Source: Faecalibacterium hattorii (GTDB lineage: Bacteria; Bacillota; Clostridia; Oscillospirales; Ruminococcaceae). From it: a stretch of 64,000 bases of DNA. The position numbers and the translations under genes were made by a program. The notes below the pieces were generated by a model. That model searched no databases and was not told where the DNA came from. It saw only the letters and a program-made list of their open reading frames with translations. Of the stretch, positions 10,960-57,427 are shown piece after piece. The stretch covers positions 62,001-126,000 of the forward strand of contig NZ_PRLC01000002.1 of assembly GCF_003287455.1 (NCBI RefSeq). Direction: 5' to 3'. Positions within the stretch are counted from its first letter, which is position 1; each line of letters opens with the position of its first letter.

Positions 10960-10976
10960 TCGGGTCTCCTTTTGAT

Positions 10977-11207: not shown

Positions 11208-11208
11208 C

Positions 11209-12944: not shown

Positions 12945-12959
12945 CGTTCATATCTCCAT

Positions 12960-17454: not shown

Positions 17455-17468
17455 CGTATTCCCCTCCC

Positions 17469-20559: not shown

Positions 20560-22080
20560 TTATGCACCCGGCACCAGCAGACGCCGGGCTTTGTCGATGG
20601 TGGTCGTCCCCTCGGCGAGGTCGTTGGCTGCGAGCATCTGCCCCGGCGAAACATGGTAGTGCTTCGCGATGGCGAACAGTTCCTCCCCCGCTTGGGCGTA
20701 GTAGATGCGGAGGGAGATCTCCGGGTCGGCGGGGGCCAGCTTCTCCCCCAGCGCAAGGTTGCCCACGCAGCTGCTCACACTGCGGCGGAGCACAGCACCT
20801 TCCACCCGCACGGTCACCGAGACATCCAGTGCCCCGCCCGTGCATCTGCATTGCAGGTTCTCTGTGCTCAGCCAGCACTCCGGGTAGAGCACGGCCTCCT
20901 CCGGCGCATCCGTCGGCAGCGGCAGCGCAAGCTCCAAAGTCTTCTCGTAGCTTTCCAACTCGGCAAGGCTGTTCTCCCCAAAGGCCGTCACCACGACCCG
21001 CGCCGTCAGCGCCCAAGATTTCCCCTGCCAGAGAAGCTGCGCCGGGCCGATGGAGGCAAAGCACGCAAGGATCTTTGCCCCGGCATCCGGCAGCGGGCCG
21101 GAACCGGTCAGGGTCGTTGTTTCGTTCAGGGCGCAGAGCAGCGATTCGGTGGGCACCGTCTGGGGAACCGGGTCTGTTTCGTACTGGGTCGAAAAGGCAT
21201 CCGCCACGCATTGCAGCTGGTAGGGCCGCCACGCCCGCAGCCGGAGCATGACCGTTGCGCTGAGGGCACTGGGCGCATCCCCCTCCCCCTGCGTGACCGT
21301 AAAGCCCACCGGCTCGGCCACGCAAAGGCAGCGGCAGTCCTCGCTGAGGCCCTCCACATCCAGCACCTGATTGAACGGCAGCTCCACACTCTGACTCTGC
21401 AAGGTGTTGTCCCCCTCGGCCCGCCACGCACAGAGAACGGAGAGCGTTCCCTTGGCCACGGCCTTGGCGTTGAGCACCTTCAGGTCATGGACGGACACGG
21501 TCCCCGCAAGGTCCAGAATCGCGGCGGGCAGCGACGGAAAGGCCAGCTCCCCTTCCACCGTGACCAGCTTATCCAGCACGGCGGTGCGGCGGACTCCTTC
21601 CAGCGTGGTCAGCCGCTGCTCGATGCCGCCGTCCGACAGGGCCGTGATGACCTCGGTTTTCAGTTGGGTGTAGACCGACGCCACCAGCCCGAAAGCTCCC
21701 CGCACCTCTACACGGCGGGGCGTGACCGAACGGCAGTTCAGATATTCCGTCTGCCCTTCCACCTGCGCCGTCCATGCCGTAAAGGTGAACTCCGGCAGCT
21801 CCAGCACCTTATTGAAGGGCAGCTTCTGCTCGGTCTGGCAAAGGCCCGCATCCTCCTCGCCCTGATAATAAACGATGCAGCGCAGATAGCCCTCCAGCGT
21901 CAGCTTGCCGGTCTGCAATTGCTTTTGCAGCACCACCGGCTTCGCAAAGCATTTGACCAGCTTGAACACCGGCGGCAGATAATCGGAAATCAGAATTTCT
22001 GTTTCCAGCGGGAGCTCCGCTTTGACGGTGCAGTCTGCCCCCGCCGCCGGCAGCGCGTCCCGAAAGATCTTCAGTTCCAT
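20560..22080 (-). CDS. SipL-like DUF3794 (SPOCS) and LysM protein
   Basis: SipL of Clostridia binds the coat ATPase SpoIVA and is needed for spore coat assembly round the forespore. This 506-residue protein has repeated SPOCS/DUF3794 domains (for example LPFNKVLELPEF near residue 90 and LPFNQVLDVEGL near 240) and a C-terminal LysM domain from about residue 455 (YYAQAGEELFAIAKHYHVS, then LAANDLAEG). There is no signal peptide, fitting a mother-cell cytosolic protein. The ATG at 22080 follows AAAGGAG; the longer frame start has no ribosome site. The gene is alone between two terminators. With the spoVM gene at 53794 it hints at a spore programme, active or relict. Confidence 0.85.
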   Translation of the reverse strand: MELKIFRDALPAAGADCTVKAELPLETEILISDYLPPVFKLVKCFAKPVVLQKQLQTGKLTLEGYLRCIVYYQGEEDAGLCQTEQKLPFNKVLELPEFTFTAWTAQVEGQTEYLNCRSVTPRRVEVRGAFGLVASVYTQLKTEVITALSDGGIEQRLTTLEGVRRTAVLDKLVTVEGELAFPSLPAAILDLAGTVSVHDLKVLNAKAVAKGTLSVLCAWRAEGDNTLQSQSVELPFNQVLDVEGLSEDCRCLCVAEPVGFTVTQGEGDAPSALSATVMLRLRAWRPYQLQCVADAFSTQYETDPVPQTVPTESLLCALNETTTLTGSGPLPDAGAKILACFASIGPAQLLWQGKSWALTARVVVTAFGENSLAELESYEKTLELALPLPTDAPEEAVLYPECWLSTENLQCRCTGGALDVSVTVRVEGAVLRRSVSSCVGNLALGEKLAPADPEISLRIYYAQAGEELFAIAKHYHVSPGQMLAANDLAEGTTTIDKARRLLVPGA

Positions 22081-22156
22081 CCTGTGCGCTCCTTTCCTGT
22101 CCGTTTGGCATAGCACATACCAGAGCATATGCGCGTTTCCCCGCCGCTATGCGCAA

Positions 22157-23319: not shown

Positions 23320-23340
23320 TGTATTCCTATGCTCCTTTCA

Positions 23341-24135
23341 TCAGATCAGGTGCTTCTTGGCCAGAATACCAGCCAGCTGTGCGGCGGTGTCGTCGCCCGT
23401 CAGCATGGTGCCTGCGCCCTTCTGCGGAGGAGTGAAGGACTTAAAGACGTTCGTCGGCGAGCCCTTCAGGCCGATGGTATCGACCTCGATCAGCGGATCG
23501 TCCTTCAGAGCGTTGTAATCAAACACTTCCATGGGCTTGTCGTAGCAGGTGAAGATGCCGTTGACGCTCATGTAACGGGGCTGGTTCAGCTCCTTGATGC
23601 AGGTCAGCAGGCAGGGAGTCTGGACCTTGACCATCATGTAGCCGTCTTCCAGCATACGCTTCACGGTCAGGGTGTTGCCATCCTTCTGGATGTCGGCAAC
23701 GTAGGTGACCTGCGGCAGATGCAGCTTTTCAGCGATCTGGGGGCCGACCTGTGCGGTATCGCCATCGATTGCCTGACGGCCGCAGAAGACGACATCCTCC
23801 GGGCCAACGCCGATCTTGTTGACAGCCGCAGCAAGGATCTGGCTGGTTGCGAAGGTATCGGAACCGCCGAACTCACGGCCGGAGACCAGAACAGCCTTGT
23901 CCGCACCGCGGGCCAGCAGCTCACGCAGCATGCCTTCGGCCGGAGGAGGACCCATGGTAACAACAACGACTTCGCAGCCGGTGGCGTCCTTGAGCTTCAG
24001 GGCAGCCTCCAGAGCGTTCAGGTCATCGGGGTTGGTAATAGTGGCCATAGAGGCACGATCCAGCGTGCCATCCGCCTTGACGGCCACCTTACCGGAGGTA
24101 TCAGGAACCTGCTTTACACAAACGATTGCTTTCAT
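23341..24135 (-). CDS. etfB: Electron transfer flavoprotein, beta subunit
   Basis: EtfB carries the second FAD in bifurcating complexes. The 264-residue protein starts MKAIVCVKQVPDTSGKV and has the family motif at about 120-140 (VFCGRQAIDGDTAQVGPQIAE). The DVVFCGRQ and DTAQVGP segments match bifurcating EtfB of butyrate formers. GGGAGG lies upstream. It follows bcd by 17 bases. Confidence 0.97.
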   Translation of the reverse strand: MKAIVCVKQVPDTSGKVAVKADGTLDRASMATITNPDDLNALEAALKLKDATGCEVVVVTMGPPPAEGMLRELLARGADKAVLVSGREFGGSDTFATSQILAAAVNKIGVGPEDVVFCGRQAIDGDTAQVGPQIAEKLHLPQVTYVADIQKDGNTLTVKRMLEDGYMMVKVQTPCLLTCIKELNQPRYMSVNGIFTCYDKPMEVFDYNALKDDPLIEVDTIGLKGSPTNVFKSFTPPQKGAGTMLTGDDTAAQLAGILAKKHLI

Positions 24136-24152
24136 TGTAAATCTTACCTCCC

Positions 24153-25322
24153 TTACTTCAGCAGCGCGCCGGAAATGACCATCATCTGCACTTCGCTGGT
24201 GCCCTCGTAGATCTCCGTGATCTTGGCATCACGCATCATGCGCTCGATGGGATAGTCACGGGTGTAGCCGTAACCACCGAACAGCTGCAGGCAGCGGCGG
24301 GTCACGTCGCTTGCGGTGCGGGCGGCGATCAGCTTTGCCTGAGCAGCCTCGACGCTGTAGCGGACCTTCTTGCCGTCCATGGCCTCCTGCTTCTTCAGAG
24401 CGGCAGCGTAGACCAGATACTTGGCAGCCTCGACGCGGGCCTTCATCTCAGCCAGCTCGAACTGGGTGTTCTGGAAAGCGGAGATGCTGCGGCCGAACTG
24501 CTTGCGCTCCTTGACGTAAGCAACGGTCTCTTCCAGAGCGCCCTCGGCGATGCCCAGAGCCTGAGAAGCGATGCCGATACGGCCGCCGTCCAGCGTAGCC
24601 ATAGCCAGCTGGAAGCCCTTGCCGCGCACGCCCAGCATACGATCCTTCGGGATCTTGCAGTCCTCGAAGATCAGCTCACAGGTGGAAGAACCGCGGATGC
24701 CCATCTTGTCCTCAGCCTTGCCGACGGAGAAGCCCGGATCGGTGCGCTCCACGATGAAGGCGGAGCACAGCTTGGTGGGACGGCCCTTCTTGTCGAGCAC
24801 GTGGTCGGTGACAGCGATGACGATGAAGACATCAGCGAAACCTGCATTGGTGATGAAGATCTTGGAGCCGTTCAGCACCCAGCAATCGTCCTCTTCCTTT
24901 GCAATGGTCTGCTGGCCCTGTGCATCGGTGCCGGCACCCGGCTCGGTCAGGCCGAAAGCGCCCAGCCACTCGCCGCTGCAGAGCTTGGGCAGGTACTTAG
25001 CCTTCTGCTCCGGGGTACCATTCTCATAAATGGGAGCAGCACACAGGCTGGTGTGAGCAGAGACGATGACACCGGTGGTGCCGCAGACCTTGCTCAGCTC
25101 TTCCACTGCCATGACGTAGGACAGCACATCGCCGCCGGCGCCGCCGACAGAGGTGGGGAAATAAATACCCATCATGCCCAGCTTGCCCATCTTCTCGACG
25201 GTCTCTTTGGGGAAGTACTCTTCTGCATCAACTTTCTTAGCCAGAGGCTTGACTTCGTTCTCAGCAAACTCGCGGTACATTTTCTGCACCATCTGCTGCT
25301 GCTTGGACAGAGTAAAATCCAT
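24153..25322 (-). CDS. bcd: Butyryl-CoA dehydrogenase
   Basis: This FAD enzyme reduces crotonyl-CoA to butyryl-CoA, coupled through EtfAB. The 389 residues show the acyl-CoA dehydrogenase signatures GAFGLTEPGAGTDAQGQ (about 120-136) and RCLQLFGGYGYTRDYPIERMMRD, and the catalytic Glu in ITEIYEGTSEVQ near residue 365. The N-terminus MDFTLSKQQQMVQKMYREFA is that of short-chain Bcd proteins. TAGGAGG lies ahead of the start. A 120-base gap with a hairpin separates it from hbd. Confidence 0.97.
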   Translation of the reverse strand: MDFTLSKQQQMVQKMYREFAENEVKPLAKKVDAEEYFPKETVEKMGKLGMMGIYFPTSVGGAGGDVLSYVMAVEELSKVCGTTGVIVSAHTSLCAAPIYENGTPEQKAKYLPKLCSGEWLGAFGLTEPGAGTDAQGQQTIAKEEDDCWVLNGSKIFITNAGFADVFIVIAVTDHVLDKKGRPTKLCSAFIVERTDPGFSVGKAEDKMGIRGSSTCELIFEDCKIPKDRMLGVRGKGFQLAMATLDGGRIGIASQALGIAEGALEETVAYVKERKQFGRSISAFQNTQFELAEMKARVEAAKYLVYAAALKKQEAMDGKKVRYSVEAAQAKLIAARTASDVTRRCLQLFGGYGYTRDYPIERMMRDAKITEIYEGTSEVQMMVISGALLK

Positions 25323-25398
25323 CGCTATATCCTCCTAACGGGTCTATTTTTCATAGGCCGGGCGCTTTTTATGGCGAACCCGGTTTGCAAACAAATTC

Positions 25399-25427
25399 CT
25401 CCCGACCGCTTTCCCCGCAGCCGGGAG
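25399..25427 (-). repeat. Intercistronic hairpin between hbd and bcd
   Basis: A CTCCCG/CGGGAG stem encloses a GC-rich loop that can extend pairing. No T tract follows, so it is more likely an mRNA processing or stability element than a terminator. Confidence 0.45.
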
Positions 25428-25442
25428 AAATGTTTTCAAAGA

Positions 25443-26315
25443 TTACAGCTGATCGACCGGGGTCTTGGTGCGGTCTGCGTTATAAACGTAGAAGCCCTTG
25501 CCGGTCTTGCAGCCCAGATTGCCGCCGCGGACCATCTTGCGGATCAGCGGGCAAGCACGATACTTGCTGTCGCCGGTCTCGTGGTACAGAACGTCCATGA
25601 TGGCGAGGCAGATGTCCAGACCGATGAAGTCGCCCAGCTCCAGCGGGCCCATGGGGTGATTTGCACCCAGCTTCATGGCGGTGTCGATGCCAGCGATATC
25701 GGAAACGCCCTCCATCTTGATGAAGGCTGCTTCGTTGATCATCGGGATCAGGATGCGGTTGACGACGAAGCCGGCAGCCTCGTTGACCTGAACAGGGTTC
25801 TTGCCGATAGCGACGGAGATCTCCTTGATCTTCTCGACGGTCTCAGCGGGAGTGTTGCAGCCAGCGATGACCTCGATCAGCTTCATGCGGTCAGCGGGGT
25901 TGAAGAAGTGCATACCGACCAGCGGGCGGCTCAGGCCCTTGCCGATCTCGGTGATGGACAGAGAAGAAGTGTTGGAAGCGAAGACGCACTCCGGCTTGCA
26001 GATCTTATCCAGCTCACCGAACGTGGTCTGCTTGACCTTCATATCCTCGAACGCAGCCTCAACGACCAGATCGCAGTCTGCGCACAGGTCTTCCTTCAGG
26101 CCCGGAGTGATGGCAGCGACGATCGCGTCTGCCTTCTCCTGCGGGATCTTGCCCTTCGCAACCAGCTTGTCGTAGCCAGCCTTGATCTTAGCGAGGCCCT
26201 TCTCGGCCCACTCCTGCTTGATGTCGCACAGAGCAACGGTGTTGCCCTCGACCTGAGCGAATGCCTTTGCAATGCCCTGACCCATCGTGCCAGCGCCAAT
26301 AACACCGATCTTCAT
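25443..26315 (-). CDS. hbd: 3-hydroxybutyryl-CoA dehydrogenase
   Basis: The enzyme reduces acetoacetyl-CoA to (S)-3-hydroxybutyryl-CoA with NAD(P)H. The 290 residues have the Rossmann motif GVIGAGTMGQGIAKAFAQ (4-21), then FASNTSSLSITEI, the catalytic VGMHFFNPADRMKLIEVI with His/Asn-Pro, GFVVNRILIPMINEA and NHPMGPLELGDFIGLD. Length and motifs match clostridial Hbd. AAAGGAG precedes the ATG. Confidence 0.97.
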   Translation of the reverse strand: MKIGVIGAGTMGQGIAKAFAQVEGNTVALCDIKQEWAEKGLAKIKAGYDKLVAKGKIPQEKADAIVAAITPGLKEDLCADCDLVVEAAFEDMKVKQTTFGELDKICKPECVFASNTSSLSITEIGKGLSRPLVGMHFFNPADRMKLIEVIAGCNTPAETVEKIKEISVAIGKNPVQVNEAAGFVVNRILIPMINEAAFIKMEGVSDIAGIDTAMKLGANHPMGPLELGDFIGLDICLAIMDVLYHETGDSKYRACPLIRKMVRGGNLGCKTGKGFYVYNADRTKTPVDQL

Positions 26316-26347
26316 AGGATATCTCTCCTTTATTTCATTGAACTTCC

Positions 26348-26375
26348 GTTCCCCGGCTCCCTCTCCGGCAGGAAC
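26348..26375 (-). repeat. Intercistronic hairpin between crt and hbd
   Basis: GTTCC plus CCGG pair with CCGG and GGAAC across a 10-base loop region, with a two-base bulge. There is no T tract after it on the transcribed strand. Confidence 0.45.
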
Positions 26376-26408
26376 CGGGCAGCAGAAGCTTAAAATTACA
26401 AATTCAAA

Positions 26409-27194
26409 TTAGTTGTTGGTAAAAACAGCCTTGGGCTTCGGTTTCTCACGGGAAAGGAAGCATGCCATGCCTTCCTTCTGGTCGTGGGTCTCGAAGCAGT
26501 CGCCGAACAGCTTTTCCTCAACTTCGACTGCCTTCTCGATGGGGAGGCTGATGCCGCCGTTGATGGCCTTCTTGCAGTTACGCACTGCAATGGGTGCGTT
26601 CTTTGCGATCTTGCCCGCCAGCTTCAGGACGTTCTCCATCAGCTCAGCCTGAGGATACACGGCGTTGACCAGACCGATGCGGTAAGCCTCATCCGCCTTG
26701 ATGTTCAGAGCGGAGTAGACCAGCTGCTTTGCCATGCCCATGCCGACCAGACGAGCCAGACGCTGGGTGCCGCCGAAGCCCGGCGTGATGCCGAGGCCGA
26801 CTTCCGGCTGGCCGAACACAGCGTTATCGGAGCAGATGCGGATGTCGCAGCTCATAGCCAGCTCGTTGCCGCCGCCCAGTGCGAAGCCGTTGACGGCTGC
26901 AATGACGGGGATCGGGAAGCTCTCGATCATCAGGAACACATCGTTGCCCAGCTTGCCGAAGGCCTCGCCTTCTGCCTTGGTCATGGTGCTCATGGAGCCG
27001 ATGTCCGCACCGGCCACGAAACTCTTGTCGCCTTCGCCGGTCAGGACGATGCAGCGGATGGTTTCCTGATCCACTGCCTCAAAAGCAGCCTTCAGGTCAG
27101 CCAGAACTTCGGGGTTCAGCGCATTCAGTGCCTTCGGGCGGTCGATGGTGATGATCTCGACGGCGCCCTGCACCTCGGTTTTAACAAATGCCAT
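26409..27194 (-). CDS. crt: Crotonase (3-hydroxybutyryl-CoA dehydratase)
   Basis: Crt removes water from 3-hydroxybutyryl-CoA to give crotonyl-CoA. The 261 residues show the oxyanion-hole loops FVAGADIGSM near 65 and AVNGFALGGGNELAMSCD near 100, with the catalytic Glu in GGGNELA and the second in FGQPEVGLGITPGFGGTQRL. GGAGG seven bases before the ATG at 27194 fixes the start, which removes five codons from the longer open frame. Confidence 0.97.
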   Translation of the reverse strand: MAFVKTEVQGAVEIITIDRPKALNALNPEVLADLKAAFEAVDQETIRCIVLTGEGDKSFVAGADIGSMSTMTKAEGEAFGKLGNDVFLMIESFPIPVIAAVNGFALGGGNELAMSCDIRICSDNAVFGQPEVGLGITPGFGGTQRLARLVGMGMAKQLVYSALNIKADEAYRIGLVNAVYPQAELMENVLKLAGKIAKNAPIAVRNCKKAINGGISLPIEKAVEVEEKLFGDCFETHDQKEGMACFLSREKPKPKAVFTNN

Positions 27195-27239
27195 TGTGAA
27201 GACCTCCATTCAAAGTCTTATTCTCAGCCAAGAACAGCC

Positions 27240-27269
27240 CCCGTGCAGGAGGAGTTGCTCCTGCACGGG
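27240..27269 (-). repeat. Intercistronic hairpin between thl and crt
   Basis: A perfect 12-bp stem (CCCGTGCAGGAG and complement) has a 6-base loop, with flanking AGAAC/GTTCT pairs extending it. No T tract follows, and crt starts 45 bases later, so it probably does not fully terminate transcription. Confidence 0.55.
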
Positions 27270-27299
27270 CCGTTCTGAAATCTGGAGTGCCTCCAGTAA

Positions 27300-28517
27300 T
27301 TAGTCCATCTCGACGATGGTAGCGCAGCCCATGCCGCCGCCGATGCACAGGGTAGCCAGACCCTTGTGAGCGCCGCGGTGCTTCATCGCATACAGCAGGG
27401 TGACGAGGATACGAGCGCCGGAAGCGCCGACCGGGTGGCCCAGAGCGATTGCGCCGCCGTTGACGTTCACCTTGCTCATGTCGAAGTTCAGTGCCTGACT
27501 GACGGCCACAGACTGAGCAGCGAAGGCCTCATTGGCCTCGATCAGATCCATATCAGCAACGGTCAGGCCGGTCTTCTTCATGACCTTCTTGGTAGCAGCG
27601 ATGGGGCCCAGACCCATGACTTCGGGCTCGACGCCAGCCAAAGCACCAGCGACCCAAGTTGCCAGCGGGGTGACACCCAGCTCCTTAGCCTTCTCCTCGC
27701 TCATGACGACCAGAGCAGCAGCGCCATCGTTGATAGCGGAAGAGTTGCCGGCGGTCACGATGCCGTCCTTGGTGAAAGCGGGCTTCAGGGTACCCAGCTT
27801 CTCGACCGGGGTCAGACGGGGGCCTTCATCGGTATCGAACACGGTGTCGCCCTTCTTGCCCTTGATGACGACAGGAACGATCTCGTCCTTGAAAGCGCCG
27901 TCCTTGATGGCCTTGTCAGCCTTGACCTGACTGTTGTAGGAGAACTGATCCAGCTCCTCACGGGTGATGGGGTTGTAGCCGTACTTTTTCTGATAGGTCT
28001 CGTTGGTGCAGACGTTCTCAGCGGTCATGCCCATGTGCTTGTTGAAACCGGTTGCATCCCACAGTGCATCGTTGACCATGGTATCGACCAGCTCGCTCTT
28101 ACCCATGGGGGCGCCCATGCGGTAGCCGTAGCGGCCCTTCATCATTGCGAAGGGAGCCATGTCCATGTTCTCCATACCACCGGCGACCACGATATCCGCA
28201 TCGCCAGCCTCGATCATCTGGGCAGCCATGTTGACGCAGTTCAGACCGGAGCCGCAGACCACGTTGACGGTGACGGCAGGAGTCTCGATGGGCAGACCAG
28301 CCTTCAGGGAAGCCTGACGTGCAACGTTCTGGCCCAGACCAGCCTGAATGACGCAGCCCATGTAAACATGATCCACCTGCTCCGGTGCGACATGTGCACG
28401 CTCCAGTGCCTCCTTGATAACGATGGAGCCCAGCTCTGCTGCGGGGACGTTGGCAAGAGTGCCGCCGAATTTACCGATCGCGGTACGGCATGCAGATGCG
28501 ATAACAACTTTCTTCAT
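27300..28517 (-). CDS. thl: Acetyl-CoA acetyltransferase (thiolase)
   Basis: Thiolase condenses two acetyl-CoA to acetoacetyl-CoA, the first step towards butyrate. The 405 residues have the acyl-enzyme Cys in [17 protein letters not shown] (about residue 88), His in [20 protein letters not shown] (about 360) and the second Cys in [13 protein letters not shown] (about 390). AGGAGG precedes the ATG. It follows coaD on the same strand by 91 bases, and no strong promoter is visible in that gap. Confidence 0.97.
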
Positions 28518-29456: not shown

Positions 29457-29484
29457 TTGTAAGAGTTTACAATTCCTTTATGTT
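29457..29484 (+). promoter_or_regulatory. CoA-transferase promoter with overlapping inverted repeat
   Basis: TTGTAA, 16 bases, then TATGTT forms a plausible promoter 24 bases before the start codon. The -35 is the left arm of a perfect inverted repeat TTGTAA-GAGT-TTACAA (29457-29472), a good position for a repressor. It is the second Rex-like element, 27 bases from the first. Confidence 0.5.
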
Positions 29485-29507
29485 ATTGTAGGAGAGGATG
29501 GTTTATA

Positions 29508-30854
29508 ATGGATTACACGGAATTGTATGCGCAGAAGAAAATGACCGCCGAGCAGGCCGCTGCTTTGGTCAAGAGCGGCGACTGGGTGGATTATGGCTGG
29601 GCCGTGAACACCCCGGTGGCTGTGGATGCTGCCATCGCAAAGCGTCTGCCTGAATTGGAGAACGTCAACTTCCGCGGCGGCATCCTGATGTGGGTGCCGG
29701 AGATCTTCCAGATCGACGACCCCGCTGCCCATATGACATGGAACAGCTGGCACATGAGCGGCATCGAGCGCAAGGCCATTGCGCAGGGCTTCTCCTTCTA
29801 CTCCCCCATCCGCTATTCCGAGCTGCCCCGCTACTACCGCGACAGCACGGACCCCGTGGATGTGGCGGTCTTTCAGGTGACCCCGATGGACGAGCACGGC
29901 TATTTCAACTTCGGCCCCAGTGCTTCCCATCTGGGTGCCGTCTGCGAAAAGGCCAAGAAGATCATCGTGGAAATCAACACCAATATGCCGCGCTGCCTCG
30001 GCGGCACCGAGAACTGGGTGCACATCTCGCAGGTGGCCGGTGTGGTGGAGGGCAATAACCCGCCGCTGGGCCAGATGGCCGCTCCCGGTGCAGCCACCGA
30101 GGTCGATCTCGCCGTGGCAAACCTCATCGTCCCGCAGATCCCCAACGGCGCTTGCTTGCAGCTGGGCATCGGCGGTATGCCCAACGCCATCGGCAACCTG
30201 ATCGCTCAGAGTGACCTGAAGGACCTCGGCGTGCACACCGAAATGTATGTGGACGCCTTTGTGGATATCGCCAAGGCGGGCAAGATCACCGGCCGCCACA
30301 AGAATCTGGACAAGGGCCGTCAGGTCTACGCCTTCGGTGCCGGCACCCAGAAGATGTACGATTACCTCGACAACAACCCGGAGTGCATGGCCGCTCCCGT
30401 GGAGTACACCAACGACATCCGCAGCATCTCTGCCCTCGACAACTTCATCTCCATCAACAACGCCGTCGATATCGACCTGTTCGGTCAGGTTAACGCCGAG
30501 AGCGCGGGCATCAAGCACATCTCCGGCGCAGGCGGCCAGTTGGACTTCGTTCTGGGCGCATACCTTTCCAACGGCGGCAAGAGCTTCATCTGCCTGTCCT
30601 CTACCTTTATGAACAAGAAGACCGGCAAGGTCGAGAGCCGCATCCGCCCCACGCTGGAAAACGGCAGCATCGTCACCGATACCCGTGCCAACATCCACTA
30701 TCTGTGCACCGAGTACGGCTGCGTAAACCTGAAGGGTCTGACCAGTTGGGAAAAGGCAGAAGCTCTGATCAGTGTTGCACACCCCGATTTCCGGGATGAG
30801 CTGATCGCCGAAGCTGAAAAAATGCACATTTGGCGCCGGAGCAACAAGCGCTGA
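29508..30854 (+). CDS. but: Butyryl-CoA:acetate CoA-transferase
   Basis: The enzyme moves CoA from butyryl-CoA to acetate, releasing butyrate and acetyl-CoA; it is the terminal step in most gut butyrate producers. The 448 residues are the usual length. The acetyl-CoA hydrolase/transferase fold is clear from [15 protein letters not shown] and the catalytic-Glu segment [12 protein letters not shown] near residue 243. AGGAGAGG lies ahead of the ATG. It is divergent from the thl-crt-hbd-bcd-etfBA operon, and the AI-2E family permease gene follows it after about 50 bases, probably in the same transcript. Confidence 0.93.
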
Positions 30855-30905
30855 GCGACGCCGCGGGAGTTCCTGCTGCCCGCGGCAGGAATGGAGTTTG
30901 CAAAC

Positions 30906-32117
30906 ATGATGGACAAAAAGCCACACATCAAGCCATACCTTTACGGGATGCTCGCGGGGTTCGGTGCCATTGCACTGAGCATCATCTTCTTCTTCCTGAT
31001 CTACCGTTTTCAGGGCTTTGGGAACGCGATCTCCAAGGTGACGGGCATCCTGATGCCCTTCATCTACGGCGCGGTGATCGCCTACCTGCTCAAGCCGGTC
31101 TGCAACACGGTGGAGAATTTTCTCCGCCGCTTGCTGCCGGAGAAGATGGGCAGCACAGCCAATATGCTGGCCGTGGCGTTCTCGCTGCTGTTCGGCATCC
31201 TCGTTGTCTACGCCCTGTTCATGATGATCGTGCCGCAGCTCGTTACCAGCGTGACCACGCTGTATTACACCGCGCGGAACAACATCCGGGACTTTGTGGA
31301 CTGGGCCTCCAAGCAGGAGATCATCGCCAGCAACGAACAGCTGCTGGACTTCATTGAGACCTCCTACGACAAATTGCAGGCCAATCTGGACACATGGGTG
31401 AAGGAGACCGTTCTCCCCTCCATGCAGAGCATCCTGAGCGGTGCAGCCGTCGGCGTGATGAGCTTCGTGGCCTTCCTGAAGAACCTTGTCATCGGCCTGA
31501 TTGTCTCGGTCTATCTGCTGGCCAGCCGGAAGAAGTTCGGCCAGCAGGGCAAGCTGATCCTCTACAGCCTTGTCAAGCGCCGCTGGGCCGACCTCTTTCT
31601 GGACGAGATCTGCTACGCCGATAAGATGTTCGGCGGCTTCATCAATGGCAAGATCTTGGATTCCGCGATCATCGGCGTGCTGTGCTACATCGCCTGTCTG
31701 ATCTTCAAGTTCCCCAGTGCCCTGCTCGTCTCCGTCATCATCGGTGTGACGAATGTCATCCCCTTCTTCGGTCCCTTCATCGGTGCCATTCCTGCCACCC
31801 TGCTCATCCTGATCCAGAATCCCATCAAGGCGCTCTGGTTCGTTCTCTTCGTGCTGGTTCTGCAGCAGGTGGACGGCAACATCATCGGACCCAAGATCCT
31901 CGGCAACACCACCGGCCTTTCGAGCTTCTGGGTGCTCTTCGCCATCCTGCTGTTCGGCGGCCTGTGGGGCTTTGTGGGCATGATCATCGGCGTGCCGCTC
32001 TTTGCCGTCATCTATGACGTCATCAAGAAACTGGTCCTCCACGGCCTGAAACGCAACGAAGAGCTGGAAATGGTCACCACCTACCACGACCACTTCGGCG
32101 ACCCCGAAGACGAATAA
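30906..32117 (+). CDS. AI-2E family permease (TqsA/PerM-like)
   Basis: The 403-residue polytopic membrane protein has about eight hydrophobic helices. The family is named for autoinducer-2 export, but members also act as Na+(Li+)/H+ antiporters, so the substrate is open. Family motifs: IYGAVIAYLLKPV near residue 50, VTNVIPFFGPFIGAIPA near 285 and QQVDGNIIGPKILG near 315. GGAG nine bases upstream supports ATG 30906; an in-frame ATG at 30891 is possible. A strong terminator follows. Confidence 0.88.
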   Translation: MMDKKPHIKPYLYGMLAGFGAIALSIIFFFLIYRFQGFGNAISKVTGILMPFIYGAVIAYLLKPVCNTVENFLRRLLPEKMGSTANMLAVAFSLLFGILVVYALFMMIVPQLVTSVTTLYYTARNNIRDFVDWASKQEIIASNEQLLDFIETSYDKLQANLDTWVKETVLPSMQSILSGAAVGVMSFVAFLKNLVIGLIVSVYLLASRKKFGQQGKLILYSLVKRRWADLFLDEICYADKMFGGFINGKILDSAIIGVLCYIACLIFKFPSALLVSVIIGVTNVIPFFGPFIGAIPATLLILIQNPIKALWFVLFVLVLQQVDGNIIGPKILGNTTGLSSFWVLFAILLFGGLWGFVGMIIGVPLFAVIYDVIKKLVLHGLKRNEELEMVTTYHDHFGDPEDE

Positions 32118-32131
32118 CACGGTTTTCTTTC

Positions 32132-33717: not shown

Positions 33718-35493
33718 TCAAATGATCTTATATTCCTGCAGCAAGCGGCCGAGGTCGGTCTCCTGCAGTTTGTCGAGCACTTTGTCCAGCGCGAACCGCT
33801 TGGCCCAGCTCATTTTCAGGTCACTCAGCGGGCGGCCGTCCCGGAGCTGGACAGCGGCGTTCAGCAGGTCGCGGACGTCGTAGGTGCTGCCCCAGACTTC
33901 CGGCACGCCGCGGTCGATGTCCAGCAGCGTATAGACCGCTTCCATGCCGGTGCGCATCGAATACTCGGTGGTGAAGATGGTATCCCGCGGCGTTTCGGCG
34001 AACTGGCCGAGGAAGGCAAAGTTGACCGCACCCTCCGGCACCACCGCCGGGCGGTCCCCCGCCTTGCGCGGCATGAAGAACGCCGTGATGTAGGGCATCA
34101 TCACCGGCACAGTGTTGGCGCTGTGCTCTGCCAGATCCTCGATCTGGGATTCCGGCACGCCGAGGTGATACAGCCACTCCATGCAGATCTCCTTGCCGGT
34201 GCAGTCCCGCATGGGCTTTTTGACGTAGTTGCCGGGCTTATCGCTGAACAGGCCGTAGAGCCAGCCCACGAGCTGCCCTTTCGGCTGATCGCGGAACTGG
34301 GGCTGGCGGTTGAAGGTCCAGCTGAGCAGCCAGTTCGAGTCCCGCGCGGTCACGATGCCGCCGGTGACGACACCGCCGCTGAAGGGGTCGCGCTGGCAGA
34401 TGTTCTGGATGTAGGGCACGATCCGCTCGTCCAGCGTGGTGATCGTAGCGCTCATCCAGTTGGTCTGCTCCGGGTCGGAGCAGAAGACCTCCGGATGGCC
34501 GAAGGCTTCATCCTGCGCGGCGATCTTCTTCCACAGGTCCCAGCCGCTGCCGGGGCGCAGAGCAGGGTCGAAGTCTGCGGGCTGATCCTGCGCACCGATG
34601 GAGGTGCTCTCGACGCAGCCGCCGTTGGTGATGAAGACCAGATCGTTTTCGGTCAGGTCCACCCGCTCCTCGTGCTCGTCCACCAACAGGCAGATGGTCT
34701 TGGCCTGTTTGCGGCCCTCCGCGATCTCGAACTCAATGTTCGTGACCTTGGTGTTGTAATGGAACCGGACGCCGTACCCTTCCAGATAGCGGATCATGGG
34801 CAGGATCATCGACTCGTACTGGTTGTACTTGGTGAACCGAAGCGCCCGGAGATCCGGAAGCCCTCCGACATGGTGGATGTAGCGCTTGAGGTAGAGCTTC
34901 ATCTCCAAGGCGCTGTGCCAGTTTTCAAAGGCGAACATGGTGCGCCAGTAGAGCCAGAAGTTCGAGGAAAACACCTCATCGTCGAACACATCGGTGATGC
35001 GCTTTTCGTACAGTTGCTCGTCCGGGGTGAAGAAGAGCTTCATGATCTCCATGCAGCCCCTGTCCGACAGGCCGAACCTGCCGTCGGTGTGGGCGTCCTG
35101 CCCCTGCTTTTCCGTCACGCGGCAGAGCGAGTAATTCGGGTCCTTTTTGTTCAGCCAATAATACTCATCCAGCACGCTCACGCCATCGGTCTCGATGGAC
35201 GGGATGGAGCGCAGCAGATCCCACATCACCTCGAAATGGTTGTCCATCTCCCGCCCGCCGCGCATCACATAGCCGATGCCGGGGTATTGATAACCGTCGC
35301 ATGCGCCGCCGGGGATGGGCCCTTTTTCAAAGATGTGGACATGTTCGCCCTTCATCTGGCCGTCCCGCACCAGATAGCACGCCGCAGTCAACGCGGCCAG
35401 CCCGGTGCCGACGAGGTAGGCCGACTTGCGGTCTACATCTTTTGGTTTCAGCGGACGCGCAAATGCTTCGTAGTTACCACTGGAATAATACAT
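33718..35493 (-). CDS. ohyA: Oleate hydratase (myosin-cross-reactive antigen family)
   Basis: This FAD-dependent enzyme adds water to the cis-9 double bond of oleate and related free fatty acids, giving 10-hydroxy acids; in gut bacteria it detoxifies unsaturated fatty acids. The 591 residues show the FAD loop YLVGTGLAALTAACYLVRDG near 26-45, IFEKGPIPGGACDG, MRGGREMDNHFEVMWDLL with the conserved catalytic Glu, and TGGIVTARDSNWLLSWTFNR near 430. GGAGGG lies before the ATG at 35493. A TetR gene lies upstream on the same strand, and the gene has its own promoter with a palindrome. Confidence 0.95.
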   Translation of the reverse strand: MYYSSGNYEAFARPLKPKDVDRKSAYLVGTGLAALTAACYLVRDGQMKGEHVHIFEKGPIPGGACDGYQYPGIGYVMRGGREMDNHFEVMWDLLRSIPSIETDGVSVLDEYYWLNKKDPNYSLCRVTEKQGQDAHTDGRFGLSDRGCMEIMKLFFTPDEQLYEKRITDVFDDEVFSSNFWLYWRTMFAFENWHSALEMKLYLKRYIHHVGGLPDLRALRFTKYNQYESMILPMIRYLEGYGVRFHYNTKVTNIEFEIAEGRKQAKTICLLVDEHEERVDLTENDLVFITNGGCVESTSIGAQDQPADFDPALRPGSGWDLWKKIAAQDEAFGHPEVFCSDPEQTNWMSATITTLDERIVPYIQNICQRDPFSGGVVTGGIVTARDSNWLLSWTFNRQPQFRDQPKGQLVGWLYGLFSDKPGNYVKKPMRDCTGKEICMEWLYHLGVPESQIEDLAEHSANTVPVMMPYITAFFMPRKAGDRPAVVPEGAVNFAFLGQFAETPRDTIFTTEYSMRTGMEAVYTLLDIDRGVPEVWGSTYDVRDLLNAAVQLRDGRPLSDLKMSWAKRFALDKVLDKLQETDLGRLLQEYKII

Positions 35494-35538
35494 GTTATTC
35501 CCTCCGTTTGTTGTGGTTTCGTTGGGTATAGTTTGCGC

Positions 35539-35562
35539 TGATAACACTGTATCATTTTATCA
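35539..35562 (-). promoter_or_regulatory. ohyA extended -10 and candidate TetR operator
   Basis: On the minus strand TGATAAAAT (an extended -10) is followed at once by TGATACAGTGTTATCA, an inverted repeat with TGATA/TATCA arms. A repressor bound there would block the start site. The TetR protein encoded next door is the obvious candidate. Confidence 0.45.
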
Positions 35563-52185: not shown

Positions 52186-53745
52186 TTGAAGCACCCATTC
52201 CGCTTGACCGCCGCGTTTCTGACGGTCCTTCTGCTGCTTGCCCTGACCGGCTGCGGTTCGGGTTCCAACAGCTTCACATGGTTCGTGGATACCATCCCCG
52301 CGAACCTCGACCCGCAGGTGGCGTCCACGGCGTCGGACGTCATCGCCTGTGAAAATTTATACAGCGGCCTTGTCCGAAAGGACCCGGACGGCGAAATCGA
52401 GCCTGCCCTCTGCGAGCGGTGGGAACGATCCGCCGACGGCAGGACTTACACCTTTTATCTGAAGGACGGCCTGACCTACACCGCCGCCAAGGGCACCGCC
52501 GCCGAGTACGCCATCACCGCCGAAGACTTCGTCTTCGCGTTCCGGCGGATGTTCCGGGCCGACACCAATTCCCCCTACGCGGTGGAGTTCTCGGCCCTTG
52601 AGAACAGCGCCGAAGTGCTGGCCGGGCAGATGCCGGAAAGCGCGCTGGGGGTCTCCGCCAGCGGCCCGCTGACGCTGGTGTTCCGCCTGAACAGTGCGGA
52701 CGAGAACTTTCTCTCCAAGCTGACGCTGCCCGGTGCCATGCCCTGCGATGAGGAGTTCTTCAACTCCACCCGCGGCACCTACGGTCTGACCGCCAAGACC
52801 ACCCTTTCCAGCGGGCCCTTCTACCTTTACAACTGGACGTCCAGCGGCCTGTTCTTGCGGCGGGAACCCTCCGGCACCCTCATCGACAGCCTCCGTCTGG
52901 TTCAGAACACCAACAACGCCGACCAGTCCGCCGTCGAGCTCGTCAACGGGGAAAAGTGCTCTGCCGCGCTGGATGACACCGGCAGCACCACCTCCCTGTC
53001 CTCCATCTCCTACTCCGACACGACGTGGGCGCTGCTCTTCAACTGCAGCACCCTCTTCTCCTCCACCGAGCTGCGGCAGTCGCTGGCCGGGGTAGCGCGG
53101 GAGGCCGCCGTGGTTCCCTCCACCGGACTCTTCGCCGCAGCGGACGGTCTCATCCCGGACGGACTGAACGTGGACGGCATGAACTACCGCAGCACCGTCG
53201 GCAATGTCTCCCCCGCTGCCGTGGATGTCAGAGCCCTCTACCTTTCTGCGCGGCAGGGCATGGCGAACTCCGACTTCAACAAAGTCACCCTGATGATCCC
53301 CGCCGGGTCCGGCCTGACCGAAGCCGCCGAGACCATCAACGGCGCATGGCAGAAGGAACTTTCCCTCTTCTTCTCCATTGAGGAGGTGGACGAGGAGACC
53401 TTCCAGAAGCGCCTTTCCGAGGGCGATTACACCATCGCGCTGGCCCCCATCAGCGCCGAAAGCGACAGCGTGTACAGTATGCTGGCCCAGTTCACCACGG
53501 CGGGCGGGAATTTGACCGGCTACGCCAATGCCCTTTACGCCACCCAGCTGGAGGCCAGCACCCACGCCACCGGCGCGGCCCGCTGCCGGCTGCTGGGCGA
53601 GTGTGAGCGCCAGCTGCTGAGCGATTGCGTGGCCGTTCCCCTCTTCTCCCAGCAAAAGCGGCTGCTGGTGGCCTCCGGCATCAAGGGCCTCATCTTCGAC
53701 CCCTTTGGCCCGGTGCTGGACCTGACCTACACCACCAAAGAATAA
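52186..53745 (+). CDS. Oligopeptide-binding lipoprotein (OppA-like, SBP family 5)
   Basis: The 519-residue protein starts at TTG 52186 with AAGGAG ten bases ahead; the nearby ATG is out of frame. A signal helix (FLTVLLLLALTGC) ends in a lipobox, so the mature protein is a membrane-anchored lipoprotein. FVDTIPANLDPQVASTASDV and LYSGLVRKDPDGEIEPALCERW are typical of SBP family 5, which binds peptides for ABC uptake. FYLKDGLTY and VFAFRRMFRAD follow. No permease or ATPase gene is adjacent, so it is an orphan that may use a transporter encoded elsewhere. Confidence 0.88.
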   Translation: MKHPFRLTAAFLTVLLLLALTGCGSGSNSFTWFVDTIPANLDPQVASTASDVIACENLYSGLVRKDPDGEIEPALCERWERSADGRTYTFYLKDGLTYTAAKGTAAEYAITAEDFVFAFRRMFRADTNSPYAVEFSALENSAEVLAGQMPESALGVSASGPLTLVFRLNSADENFLSKLTLPGAMPCDEEFFNSTRGTYGLTAKTTLSSGPFYLYNWTSSGLFLRREPSGTLIDSLRLVQNTNNADQSAVELVNGEKCSAALDDTGSTTSLSSISYSDTTWALLFNCSTLFSSTELRQSLAGVAREAAVVPSTGLFAAADGLIPDGLNVDGMNYRSTVGNVSPAAVDVRALYLSARQGMANSDFNKVTLMIPAGSGLTEAAETINGAWQKELSLFFSIEEVDEETFQKRLSEGDYTIALAPISAESDSVYSMLAQFTTAGGNLTGYANALYATQLEASTHATGAARCRLLGECERQLLSDCVAVPLFSQQKRLLVASGIKGLIFDPFGPVLDLTYTTKE

Positions 53746-53753
53746 GGAAAACG

Positions 53754-53787
53754 CAAGACCCTCTGTGCTGCGGCACAGAGGGTCTTG
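53754..53787. terminator. Bidirectional terminator between lipoprotein gene and spoVM
   Basis: A perfect 15-bp stem starting CAAGACCCTCTGTGC with loop TGCG. It lies between two convergent genes, with modest T tracts on both sides. Confidence 0.8.
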
Positions 53788-53793
53788 TTCTGC

Positions 53794-53868
53794 CTATTTC
53801 TTGATGCCGAACAACCGGCGCAGGATCCCGCGCAGACACTTCGGGCTTTTGATGACGACCACCTGCAT
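53794..53868 (-). CDS. spoVM: SpoVM-like micro-protein (24 residues)
   Basis: SpoVM is a tiny amphipathic helix that reads the positive curvature of the forespore membrane and anchors SpoIVA for coat assembly. The 24 codons give an opening MQVVVIKSPK and an ending LFGIKK. Against the 26-residue B. subtilis protein, Ile6, Lys7, Pro9, Lys10, Leu12, Gly14, Ile15, Arg17 and Gly21 are identical. Pro9 is important in B. subtilis. AAAGG and GGGAAGAGG precede the ATG. The gene follows thiN on the same strand, exactly the B. subtilis order thiN-spoVM. It is too short for standard gene callers. Confidence 0.88.
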   Translation of the reverse strand: MQVVVIKSPKCLRGILRRLFGIKK

Positions 53869-53942
53869 CCTCTTCCCGCCTTTCGTTCTGTGATACCACA
53901 GTATAAGCGGTTGGAGCACAGAATGTGCAGCCGGTTTGGCTG

Positions 53943-54593
53943 TCAGGTCGTCAGAATGGGCGTATCGGCCACGGTCTCCACCACAACGAGGGTTCCCTTC
54001 CGGGTCGAGACGGTGATACAGTCCGAGCCTTCGGCGTACTCATTGCTGACGCCCAGCGGGTAGCCCGCCGTGAGGGCCGCATCGGTCAGCTCGTAGTAGG
54101 AGCCGCCTTCGCAGACGCCCTCGGCCCTGCCCTCCATGGGGAAGACGGAAAAGTAGAAAAATTCCTCTTTCGGGTAACGGCGTTCCTCACCGGGGCGGAC
54201 GAAGGTGATGCGGCTGCGCTCGTTCTGGAGGGTGACGCGGACGCCCCGCTCTTCCAGCCCAAGGCCGGTGCAGAGGTTCGACAGCGTGTGCTCCAGCCGT
54301 TTGCCGCCCAGCGCCCCCAGCAGCAGTACCTCGGAAAAACCCTTTTCCGAAGCGAGCTTCGCCGCATATTCGGTATCGGTATCGTCCTTGACGTGGGGCA
54401 GGATGATGACATCATCCTCCTGCGCCGGGCAGGGCGCGGTATCGAAGTCGCCGACGATGATGTTCGGCTTGCAGCCCAGCGGCTCGCAGTTGCGGTAGCC
54501 CGCATCGCACGCAATGATGAAGTCCTCGGGGCGGAGCAGACGTTTCAGCTCCGGCGAGACCGGGCACGCGGAAAGGATCACACAGCGTGACAT
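53943..54593 (-). CDS. thiN: Thiamine pyrophosphokinase
   Basis: The enzyme transfers pyrophosphate from ATP to thiamine, giving the active cofactor. The 216 residues show ACDAGYRNCEPLGCKPNIIV, GDFDTAP and HVKDDTDTEYAAKLA, the family motifs of the catalytic domain, and LLGALGGKRLEHTLSN; the C-terminal beta domain ends with EGSDCITVSTRKGTLVVV. AAAGGAG precedes ATG 54593. In B. subtilis rpe lies between rsgA and thiN; here rpe is absent and a short repeat fills the gap. Confidence 0.94.
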   Translation of the reverse strand: MSRCVILSACPVSPELKRLLRPEDFIIACDAGYRNCEPLGCKPNIIVGDFDTAPCPAQEDDVIILPHVKDDTDTEYAAKLASEKGFSEVLLLGALGGKRLEHTLSNLCTGLGLEERGVRVTLQNERSRITFVRPGEERRYPKEEFFYFSVFPMEGRAEGVCEGGSYYELTDAALTAGYPLGVSNEYAEGSDCITVSTRKGTLVVVETVADTPILTT

Positions 54594-54611
54594 AAGAACT
54601 CCTTTATTCTT

Positions 54612-54673
54612 GGCTCCCCTGCTAGGGGAACTCCGCAAGGCGCTGGCGCTGCCAGACCCAGCGGTGAGAGGTT
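54612..54673. repeat. Short dispersed hairpin repeat, copy B
   Basis: Read on the minus strand it opens AACCTCTCACC next to the rsgA stop and closes AGTTCCCCTAGCAGGGGAGCC, with CTGGC/GCCAG stems between. The frame matches copy A at 48261, with a longer central hairpin. It occupies the site where rpe stands in other genomes. Confidence 0.45.
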
Positions 54674-55550
54674 AAACTTTGGGGCGCTGCCAGTCCTTGA
54701 CGTCCTTGACTTCCTCATACATGGCGCAGTAGCTGTCGTACCGGGTCTGAGAGAGCTTGCCCTCGGCCAGCGCGGCACGGACGGCACAGCCCTTCTCCGA
54801 CCGGTGAGAGCAGCCCGTGAACTGACACTCGCCGAGATAAGGCCCGAACTCCGGGAAGACATGCTCCAGATTCTCCTTGGGGATGAACCCGGCGCGGTTG
54901 GCCTCCAAGCTGGCGAAGCCGGGGGTGTCGGCGATGCGCCCGCCAAACGCCTCGAAGATGGTCACTTCGCGGGTGGTGTGGCGGCCGCGGCCAAGCTTCT
55001 GGCTGATGGCGCTGGTCTCCCGCTCGGCCTCCGGCAGCAGCGCGTTCAACAGCGTGGACTTGCCCACGCCGGAGTTGCCGCAGAAGGCGCAGAGCCGCCC
55101 ATCGATCCACTGTTTCACCTCGTCCAGCCCCTCGCCGGTATCGTAGTGGATGGCGATGAAGGGCAGGGTCGATCTTTCGTAAGCGCTGCGGAGGAACTCC
55201 GCCTCGCCGAGGTCGGCCTTGGTGCAGACGATGACCGGCTGCACCCCTTTATCCACCGCAATGGCGGACAGCTTATCCAGCACCAAGGTGCTGGGGGTAG
55301 GCTGGGTGGTGCTGGCCACAAGGAAGAGCACATCGAGGTTCGCCATCGGCGGGCGGACGAAGACATTTTTGCGGGGTGCGATCTCGGCGATGACGGAGGC
55401 ACCGTTCTCGGTCTCCACCGTCACCTCGTCGCCCGCCACGGGGGCGATCTTCTGTTTGCGGAAGATGCCGCGCGGCTTGCACTCGACGATGCCTTCTTCG
55501 GTCTTGACGTAATAGAAGCCGCCGATGCCTTTTACAATATAGCCTTTCAT
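54672..55550 (-). CDS. rsgA: Ribosome small-subunit GTPase RsgA
   Basis: RsgA helps late 30S assembly in a GTP-dependent way. The 292 residues are circularly permuted: an OB fold (about 1-70), then the GTPase with the order G4 (VIVCTKADL), G1 (CGNSGVGKSTLLN near 172), G3 (DTPGFAS), and a C-terminal zinc motif GECQFTGCSHRSEKGC. GGAGGAG before ATG 55550 fixes the start. It lies 11 bases after prkC, as in B. subtilis, where PrkC phosphorylates it. Confidence 0.96.
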   Translation of the reverse strand: MKGYIVKGIGGFYYVKTEEGIVECKPRGIFRKQKIAPVAGDEVTVETENGASVIAEIAPRKNVFVRPPMANLDVLFLVASTTQPTPSTLVLDKLSAIAVDKGVQPVIVCTKADLGEAEFLRSAYERSTLPFIAIHYDTGEGLDEVKQWIDGRLCAFCGNSGVGKSTLLNALLPEAERETSAISQKLGRGRHTTREVTIFEAFGGRIADTPGFASLEANRAGFIPKENLEHVFPEFGPYLGECQFTGCSHRSEKGCAVRAALAEGKLSQTRYDSYCAMYEEVKDVKDWQRPKV

Positions 55551-55561
55551 CTGCTCCTCCG

Positions 55562-57427
55562 TTACGACAGCAGCGAGGTCCACCAGTCGGTCAGGGGCGA
55601 GCTGCCGGTGCTGGAACTCCCGCTGGAAGACGAACCGCCGACGAGGCCGCTCCACCAATCGCCGGAGCTGCTGGCGGAATCGCTGCTCTCCGCCGAGGAT
55701 GCCGGTTCCTCCGGGACTTCCGGTTCGGGTTCGGGGCCTGCGCTGACGGTGACGCTGACGCGGCTGTTGACCTTGACGGTAGAGCCCGCTGCGGGGTTCT
55801 GCCCAATGATGGTACCGGCGGGCTTGTCGCTGTACTGCTCGGTGGTGCTGCCGAGGCCCAGCTTATTCTGCACCAGCAGGGTGCGGGCGTCGTTCACGCT
55901 GGAAAGGCCCACCAGCGACGGCACCTTGGCCGTGGTGCTGACCTGCGGGCGGCTGACGTAGACCACGACCGTGGAGCCCGCCGCCACCTGACTGCCCGCG
56001 GCGGGGTCGGTGCGAATGACTGAGCCGGAGGCCACGGTGGGTTCCACCGCCTGTGTGACCAGCACCGAGACGCCGAGGTTCTTGAGCTGCTGCTCCGCAT
56101 CGGCCTGCAGGTAGTTGGTCACATCCGGCACGGTAACGGACTGGATGCCGAGGCTGACGGTCAGGGTCACGCTCTGGCCCTCACGGACGGTGCGGCCCGC
56201 CACCGGCGACTGCTTGTAGACGTAACCGGCAGCGTAATCGTTGCTGTAGGACTGCTCCCAGTTCACGGTGATCTGGCCGGAGGAGACCTGCGGCTGGGCG
56301 TTCACCTCGTCCTGCGTCATGCCGCTGTAATCGGCCAGCACGACGTCGGCCTTCTCGCTCATCAGGGTGCTGGAGTCGTTGAGGATGGCCCAGCACAGGG
56401 CCAGACAGGCCAGCGCAAAGGCCACCGTGATGCCGAACAGCACCGGCAGGAAGACGGTGCGCTTCTTTTTGCCCTTGCGGGCTTTTTTCGGTTCCGGAGC
56501 ATCTTTTTGGGTTTTCATGGGGCGTTCCACCACCTTTTCAGGAATTTCGTCGGGGAGATAGGTGTAATTGAACACGATGGCTGGGTTTTCGACGTAGGCA
56601 TTCAGGGCGTTCAGCATCTCGGCAGCGCTGGCGTAACGGTTGTCCGGGCGCTTTGCCATGGCCCGCTCGGTGATCTCCACAAGGCCGTGGGGCACATTGG
56701 GGGCCAGCTCCTGCAAGCTCTGGGGCTTGTCCGAGATCTGCTTGATGGCCACTTCCACCACATCGTCCGCATCAAAGGGCAGATGCCCCGAAAGCATCTC
56801 GTACATCATGACACCGACCGAGTAGATGTCGCTGGTGAAGTCGGTCTCGTCGCCCTTGGCCTGTTCGGGGCTGATATAATGGACGCTGCCCATGGCTTTG
56901 CCGCCGGTGAGCTGGTTCTCGGCGCGGGAAATGCGCGCGATGCCGAAATCCATCATCCGAAGCTGGCCGTTGTCCAGCAGCATGATGTTCTGGGGCTTGA
57001 TGTCCCGGTGCACCACGCCGTTGCGGTGGGCGTGATCCAGCGCTTTCAGGATCTGGGAGATGAAGTGCACCGTCTCCCGGCTGGTCAGCTTGCCGCCGCG
57101 CTCGTTCAGATACTCCCGCAGGGTCATACCGTCCACATATTCCATGACGATATACTGTAAATTCTCACTCACCGAGACATCGTACACCTTGACGATGTTG
57201 GGGTGGTTGAGCAGCGAGATGGCCTTGGATTCATTCTTGAAGCGGCGGACGAGGTCGGGGTCGTGCATAAGCTCCTGCCGCAGCACCTTGACGGCCACAA
57301 CCGTGCCCTCCGGCACCGGGCCGCCGGGCCCTACCACCGCCTTGTAGACATTGGCCATGCCGCCGGTGCCGATCAGCTCCCGGACGGTGTACAGGCCATC
57401 GAGGGTCTTGCCGATCAGATTATCCAT
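55562..57427 (-). CDS. prkC: PASTA-domain serine/threonine kinase
   Basis: This membrane kinase senses muropeptides or lipid II. The 621 residues contain a kinase domain (about 10-270: GTGGMANVYKAV, VAVKVL Lys, VVHRDIKPQNIMLLDNG, DFGIAR), a juxtamembrane basic stretch, one TM helix near 333-355 (GITVAFALACLALCWAIL), three PASTA repeats (about 370-570) and a Ser-rich, Trp-containing tail. In spore formers the family triggers germination; elsewhere it controls wall growth. The start overlaps prpC by eight bases. Confidence 0.95.
   Translation of the reverse strand: MDNLIGKTLDGLYTVRELIGTGGMANVYKAVVGPGGPVPEGTVVAVKVLRQELMHDPDLVRRFKNESKAISLLNHPNIVKVYDVSVSENLQYIVMEYVDGMTLREYLNERGGKLTSRETVHFISQILKALDHAHRNGVVHRDIKPQNIMLLDNGQLRMMDFGIARISRAENQLTGGKAMGSVHYISPEQAKGDETDFTSDIYSVGVMMYEMLSGHLPFDADDVVEVAIKQISDKPQSLQELAPNVPHGLVEITERAMAKRPDNRYASAAEMLNALNAYVENPAIVFNYTYLPDEIPEKVVERPMKTQKDAPEPKKARKGKKKRTVFLPVLFGITVAFALACLALCWAILNDSSTLMSEKADVVLADYSGMTQDEVNAQPQVSSGQITVNWEQSYSNDYAAGYVYKQSPVAGRTVREGQSVTLTVSLGIQSVTVPDVTNYLQADAEQQLKNLGVSVLVTQAVEPTVASGSVIRTDPAAGSQVAAGSTVVVYVSRPQVSTTAKVPSLVGLSSVNDARTLLVQNKLGLGSTTEQYSDKPAGTIIGQNPAAGSTVKVNSRVSVTVSAGPEPEPEVPEEPASSAESSDSASSSGDWWSGLVGGSSSSGSSSTGSSPLTDWWTSLLS

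Follow-up and report, generated by a model that had tools for sequence, protein, structure and literature searches.

A conserved spoVM gene in Faecalibacterium, a gut genus described as non-spore-forming

Does a frame of 24 codons behind thiN in Faecalibacterium hattorii encode SpoVM, and what would such a protein do in a genus described as non-spore-forming? The frame lies in a stretch of 64,000 nucleotides, here called the window, and had been proposed as spoVM in an initial annotation, whose frame, strand, coordinates, codon count, ribosome site and proline at position 9 all proved correct. The gene and the signals around it are the following:

53794..53868, minus strand: spoVM, 24 codons followed by a TAG stop, encoding the peptide MQVVVIKSPKCLRGILRRLFGIKK
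53875..53884, minus strand: ribosome site GAAAGGCGGG, 6 bases 5' of the ATG
53899..53928, minus strand: promoter-like block GCACATTC-N12-GCTTATACTG, conserved in an alignment of 29 distinct upstream regions
53754..53787, minus strand: intrinsic terminator hairpin with a 15 bp stem, just 3' of spoVM and before a convergent solute-binding-protein gene

An in-frame GTG 17 codons before the ATG would extend the frame to 41 codons, whereas the match to the NCBIfam profile NF033436 (SpoVM_broad) begins at the ATG. With hmmscan this match covers positions 1-24 of the 26 in the model (E 1.9e-6) and scores 27.7 bits, below the curated cut-off of 31 bits. In a search of the 2.79 Mb genome, spoVM is the sole match at E ≤ 1 (E 5.9e-5), a threshold at which 5 of 14 control genomes also match, only B. 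subtilis being above the cut-off. The Pfam model SpoV (PF08183) found no match in the peptide at E ≤ 1 or in the whole genome at E ≤ 10, a level that yields matches in 9 of the 14 controls, above the cut-off in only one, and PHROGs gave no match. The NF033436 search at E ≤ 1 detects SpoVM in all 31 genomes of the genus, and since 19 of them are above the cut-off, with orthologues in the same place, we judge the low score of the window copy to be a matter of model calibration.

For comparison we used the B. subtilis SpoVM sequence and gene order. The two proteins have in common the start, a near-equal length and the place after thiN, as well as Ile6, Lys7, Pro9, Lys10, Leu12, Gly14, Ile15, Arg17 and Gly21; these are only nine identities out of 23, and the net charge over 24 residues is +7 in the window against +5 in B. 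subtilis. The initial annotation had leaned on these nine identities. Its count is right, and is the highest among the 82,490 stop-free 24-mers of the window, but mononucleotide shuffling of the whole stretch, repeated five times, gives maxima of 8, 8, 8, 8 and 10, and we therefore rejected the identity count as evidence on its own. The predicted helix has a hydrophobic moment of 0.573, which is not significant, as 17% of the peptide's own shuffles reach it (P 0.17). Pro9 is the sole fully conserved residue in the SpoVM alignment of PMC5607322.

Conservation across the genus is what settles the reality of the gene. The frame is unbroken in all 29 congeners with a complete copy, the outcome on which the initial annotation had staked the gene, while in the 30th (G017) the contig ends within the gene. 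Pro9 is present in each of the 30 complete copies of the genus, and position 6 is always Ile, Val or Leu. Among 30 genomes holding 27 distinct sequences (G017 dropped), the differences fall on the three codon positions of the gene's own frame as 32/15/53%, with a pN/pS of 0.30; uncorrected values over 16 shared genomes are 0.26 for spoVM, 0.25 for spoIVA, 0.18 for rsgA and 0.37 for thiN, and the uncorrected synonymous divergence of spoVM from the window copy runs from 0.14 to 0.84. Purifying selection acts on spoVM and spoIVA much as it does on the housekeeping genes next to them. An open frame alone means little here, because the five other frames of the 72-base block are open in 9, 25, 26, 25 and 3 of the 27 distinct sequences. 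In Gemmiger and Fournierella, a peptide-pattern search places spoVM 740-805 bases after rsgA in four of four loci, two of which (L121 and L128) encode an identical SpoVM peptide and seem to come from a single species. The frame of 24 codons is very probably a real spoVM, encoding the tiny protein that anchors the spore coat to the membrane. As a gene it is an expected orthologue and an unremarkable representative of its known family; what is uncommon is the host setting.

The position of the gene can be judged against the following neighbours and partner:

53943..54596, minus strand: thiN, thiamine diphosphokinase (TIGR01378 E 9.4e-36, 123 bits, above cut-off), immediately 5' of spoVM
54672..55658, minus strand: rsgA (TIGR00157 E 3.5e-59, above cut-off); these are open-reading-frame bounds and the true start may be further in
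farther upstream, beyond two frames 5' of rsgA that we take for prkC and prpC from their sequence and known synteny: rlmN
52252..53745, plus strand: family-5 solute-binding-protein gene (PF00496 E 7.4e-28), convergent with spoVM, putative start
20560..22128, minus strand: sipL, with a SPOCS domain (PF12673 E 3.7e-17) and a C-terminus that is LysM-like by eye

RsgA assigns the window to Faecalibacterium. The place after thiN, as originally claimed, recurs in 30 of the 31 genus genomes; in the 31st (G017) the contig stops inside spoVM. The SipL-like gene reported alongside is also real, and lies about 32 kb from spoVM, while spoIVA is on another contig. The solute-binding-protein gene occupies the site where many other Faecalibacterium carry sipL, and it likewise adjoins spoVM in the near relatives L066 and L070. 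In 22 of the 31 genomes sipL is encoded no more than 5 kb 3' of spoVM and in the same direction (in L092 partially, where the contig ends); spoVM, sipL and spoIVA are adjacent in 14 (in L082 with the start of spoIVA only). This adjacency in relatives is a stronger link than the presence of two SpoIVA-linked factors in one window, to which the annotation had pointed. The arrangement in these relatives, with sipL and spoIVA after spoVM, differs from that of B. subtilis.

Outside the genus, 21 loci from 30 genomes were examined, some of them identified by weak profile matches; the match of L141 has a stop inside the aligned segment. Seven of the 21 (L096, L098, L100, L137, L138, L140 and L141), from six families including the window's own, have sipL within about 2 kb of spoVM, head to head in L098, L138 and L141, and nine have thiN or rsgA just 5' of spoVM. 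Because of its spread, we infer that rsgA-thiN-spoVM-sipL-spoIVA is probably the older order in the genus, broken in the clade of the window and in some others.

In the window's genome, where the spoVM-sipL-spoIVA order is broken, sipL now adjoins butyrate genes. These form a cluster at 22228-28517 (minus strand) with two ETF subunits, acyl-CoA dehydrogenase, 3-hydroxyacyl-CoA dehydrogenase, enoyl-CoA hydratase and thiolase. The window also holds a molybdenum hydroxylase cluster at 9916-20390 (minus strand), with XdhC, AIR-synthase-like, TusA-like, class V aminotransferase and xanthine/uracil permease genes, which may serve selenium-dependent purine use. A gene of the MCRA family, which we take to be oleate hydratase, lies at 33721-35547 (minus strand, 733 bits), and an open frame of 880 codons at 29481-32120 (minus strand) has no Pfam match at 1e-5.

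The signals around spoVM are conserved with it. In the alignment of 29 distinct upstream regions, the ribosome site reads GAAAGGC(A/G)GG or close to it in most congeners, and the genus consensus before the gene runs GGaACaTTttg, then Gc.TATAaTGG, then the ribosome site. We scored candidate sites against the sigma-E consensus as printed in PMC3416734, with a maximum of 15. The promoter-like block of the window scores 11, which 2.4% of random windows equal, and the 30 spoVM sites of the genus have a mean of 10.4 (background 8.2), although six of them score only 9, a level reached by 34% of random windows. The sipL sites score from 9 to 13; for that of the window (10) and the spoIVA site of the same genome (11), the sequence searched was somewhat longer than that used for the background. 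The block therefore fits sigma-E control in a suggestive way only, and a sigma-A-like -10 element would be an equally good reading of it. Downstream, the terminator fold of 53735-53800 has a free energy of -33.7 kcal/mol (z -7.07), and none of 200 shuffles is as stable.

The partner gene spoIVA, whose presence in the genome the annotation had named as a test, is there: SpoIVA scores 679.5 bits, above the cut-off, and is found in all 31 genomes of the genus. The protein of the window's genome has an intact Walker A motif (GPVRTGKST) near the N-terminus and, counted from the C-terminus, a Gly that corresponds to Gly486 of B. subtilis, if position 486 of the model equals B. subtilis 486; C. difficile has Asn at this place (PMC5607322). 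SpoVM of B. subtilis senses the curvature of the forespore membrane, brings SpoIVA to it and stimulates SpoIVA polymerisation (PMC7549369), and binding of the two is reported to need Ile6 of SpoVM and Gly486 of SpoIVA (PMC5607322). The window's SpoVM is most likely a membrane anchor of SpoIVA as well. The mother cell would express the gene from a separate promoter, probably a sigma-E-dependent one. The protein would insert a short helix with a kink at Pro9 into the outer membrane of a presumed forespore and hold SpoIVA there during polymerisation, while SipL would join via SpoIVA.

C. difficile, like the host of the window, has both SipL and SpoIVA, and there the LysM part of SipL binds SpoIVA (PMC5607322). 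Control of spoVM by sigma-E is reported in C. difficile and is possible in Faecalibacterium; in the former the gene is co-transcribed after one for an unrelated protein of 50 residues (PMC5607322), and in the latter it follows thiN. As SpoVM is described as largely dispensable in C. difficile (PMC5607322), a strong spoVM phenotype is not assured.

The host retains a large part of the regulatory cascade for sporulation, and for this reason the suggestion that the gene would be of interest even if the host does not sporulate understated the case. In the window's genome Spo0A (259 bits), SpoVAD, GPR and SpoIIP are above a curated cut-off, as are SigE (341 bits, NF006158) and SigG (386 bits, NF006071), although these two are under the cut-offs of TIGR02835 and TIGR02850. 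A sigma-F-like factor (191-198 bits) is under its cut-offs, as are SpoIIAA, SpoVAC, SpoIIE, SpoIIR and a weak SpoIIGA (55.8 bits), and we read SpoIIAB and SpoVAE by eye from translations. The low SpoIIE score says little, since none of 61 genomes passes that cut-off. Across the genus, Spo0A is above the cut-off in 30 of 31 genomes, sigma-G reaches at least 333 bits in 29 (none of the 61 genomes passes the cut-off of its model), SpoIIR is found in 29 and SpoVAD in 27.

Alpha/beta SASPs (PF00269) were detected in 27 of 30 genomes outside the genus and in none of the 31 within it, several of which are incomplete drafts, nor in any of the eight single-contig genomes among these. None was above the cut-off in the four Gemmiger and Fournierella genomes (G061-G064, completeness unstated). 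CwlD gives 95 to 225 bits in all 30 genomes outside the genus, against a weak 26-89 bits in 22 of the 31 within it (26 in the window's genome) and no match in nine, on a model whose cut-off only one of the 61 genomes passes; the copies of G009, G017, G018 and G027 (80-89 bits) may be a diverged CwlD or only a general amidase. GPR, the protease of SASPs, persists in 26 of 31 genus genomes although alpha/beta SASPs are undetected; its scores there are low, at 148-169 bits, whereas 26 of the 30 other genomes reach 222-337 bits.

The literature is split on whether the host makes spores. Species descriptions call Faecalibacterium non-spore-forming (PMC11261667, PMC8166934, PMC6295017), while the review PMC8953710 places F. 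prausnitzii among spore-formers. PMC7924749 describes a cluster that includes Faecalibacterium and whose phenotype is largely unknown; it has kept the spoIIIA operon but has neither SpoIID nor SpoIIB and almost nothing of the DMP complex for engulfment. PMC3533761 lists Spo0A-positive non-spore-formers in which it records no SASP gene, and the absence of SASPs is in this way compatible with sporulation having been lost. The offspring programme of Epulopiscium sp. type B resembles Faecalibacterium in combining sporulation regulators and spoIVA with the absence of ordinary spores, but SASP genes and cwlD are kept there and eight of nine DPA genes are lost (PMC3416734). For SASP, CwlD and SpoVAC/SpoVAD, Faecalibacterium is the reverse. 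In the open-access literature, to which this weak absence is confined, we found no work joining spoVM with Faecalibacterium sporulation genes, and none on F. prausnitzii with spo0A and spoIVA; PMC8340488 and PMC4890681 name Faecalibacterium only among their references.

How, then, is the gene best explained? A chance open frame within a conserved non-coding promoter-terminator stretch would account for an identity count that alone lies within chance and for the frequent openness of the block's other frames; the codon-position bias, a pN/pS of 0.26-0.30 and a SpoVM profile match in the genomic place of SpoVM largely refute it, leaving it hardly any probability. That the gene is a relic, a true former spoVM kept in a non-sporulating lineage only through recent ancestry, we regard as quite improbable. 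The description of the genus as non-spore-forming, the undetected SASPs, the weak or undetected CwlD and the low scores of SpoIIE, SpoIIR, SpoIIGA, the sigma-F-like factor and GPR all fit a relic, as does the reported absence of engulfment proteins in the Faecalibacterium cluster (PMC7924749). Against it, selection on spoVM and spoIVA matches that on their housekeeping neighbours, and not one of the 29 complete congener copies is broken; their synonymous divergence from the window copy would have allowed time for decay.

It is also unlikely that SpoVM, SipL and SpoIVA have been co-opted to coat a membrane other than that of a spore, or a non-dormant forespore-like cell. The loss does look selective, with SASPs and CwlD missing or weak and SpoIVA, SpoVM, SipL and SpoVAD retained, but the retained set includes SpoVAC, SpoVAD and GPR, which in characterised systems work in spores, and a second role has left no sign here. 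We consider it highly probable that the window holds a genuine spoVM orthologue under selection, with its own mother-cell promoter, whose product would anchor SpoIVA, with SipL attached via SpoIVA. Counted against this explanation are the weak sigma-E assignment of the site, a helix no more amphipathic than its own shuffles, and the sub-cut-off NF033436 score together with the lack of a Pfam SpoV match; to these are added the non-spore-forming descriptions, the loss of SpoIID, SpoIIB and the DMP complex and the dispensable SpoVM of C. difficile reported in the sources cited above.

The gene gains its weight from the setting, a gut genus described as non-spore-forming that has spoVM, sipL, spoIVA and sporulation sigma factors, and it turns this setting into a testable question, namely what the retained sporulation programme builds. 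Our own tentative proposal, which we hold to be doubtful though conceivable, is that Faecalibacterium, Gemmiger and Fournierella run a live endospore-type programme, in which a SpoVM-SpoIVA-SipL shell would surround an internal cell free of SASPs and of a CwlD-type cortex, the product being atypical or non-dormant. The spoVM-sipL-spoIVA neighbourhood also bears on the job of SpoVM in clostridia as against bacilli, which PMC3533761 leaves open. If the proposal is true, one of the commonest human gut bacteria would form an atypical or non-dormant internal cell, and if atypical spores form, ideas of how Faecalibacterium is transmitted and stored would have to be revised.
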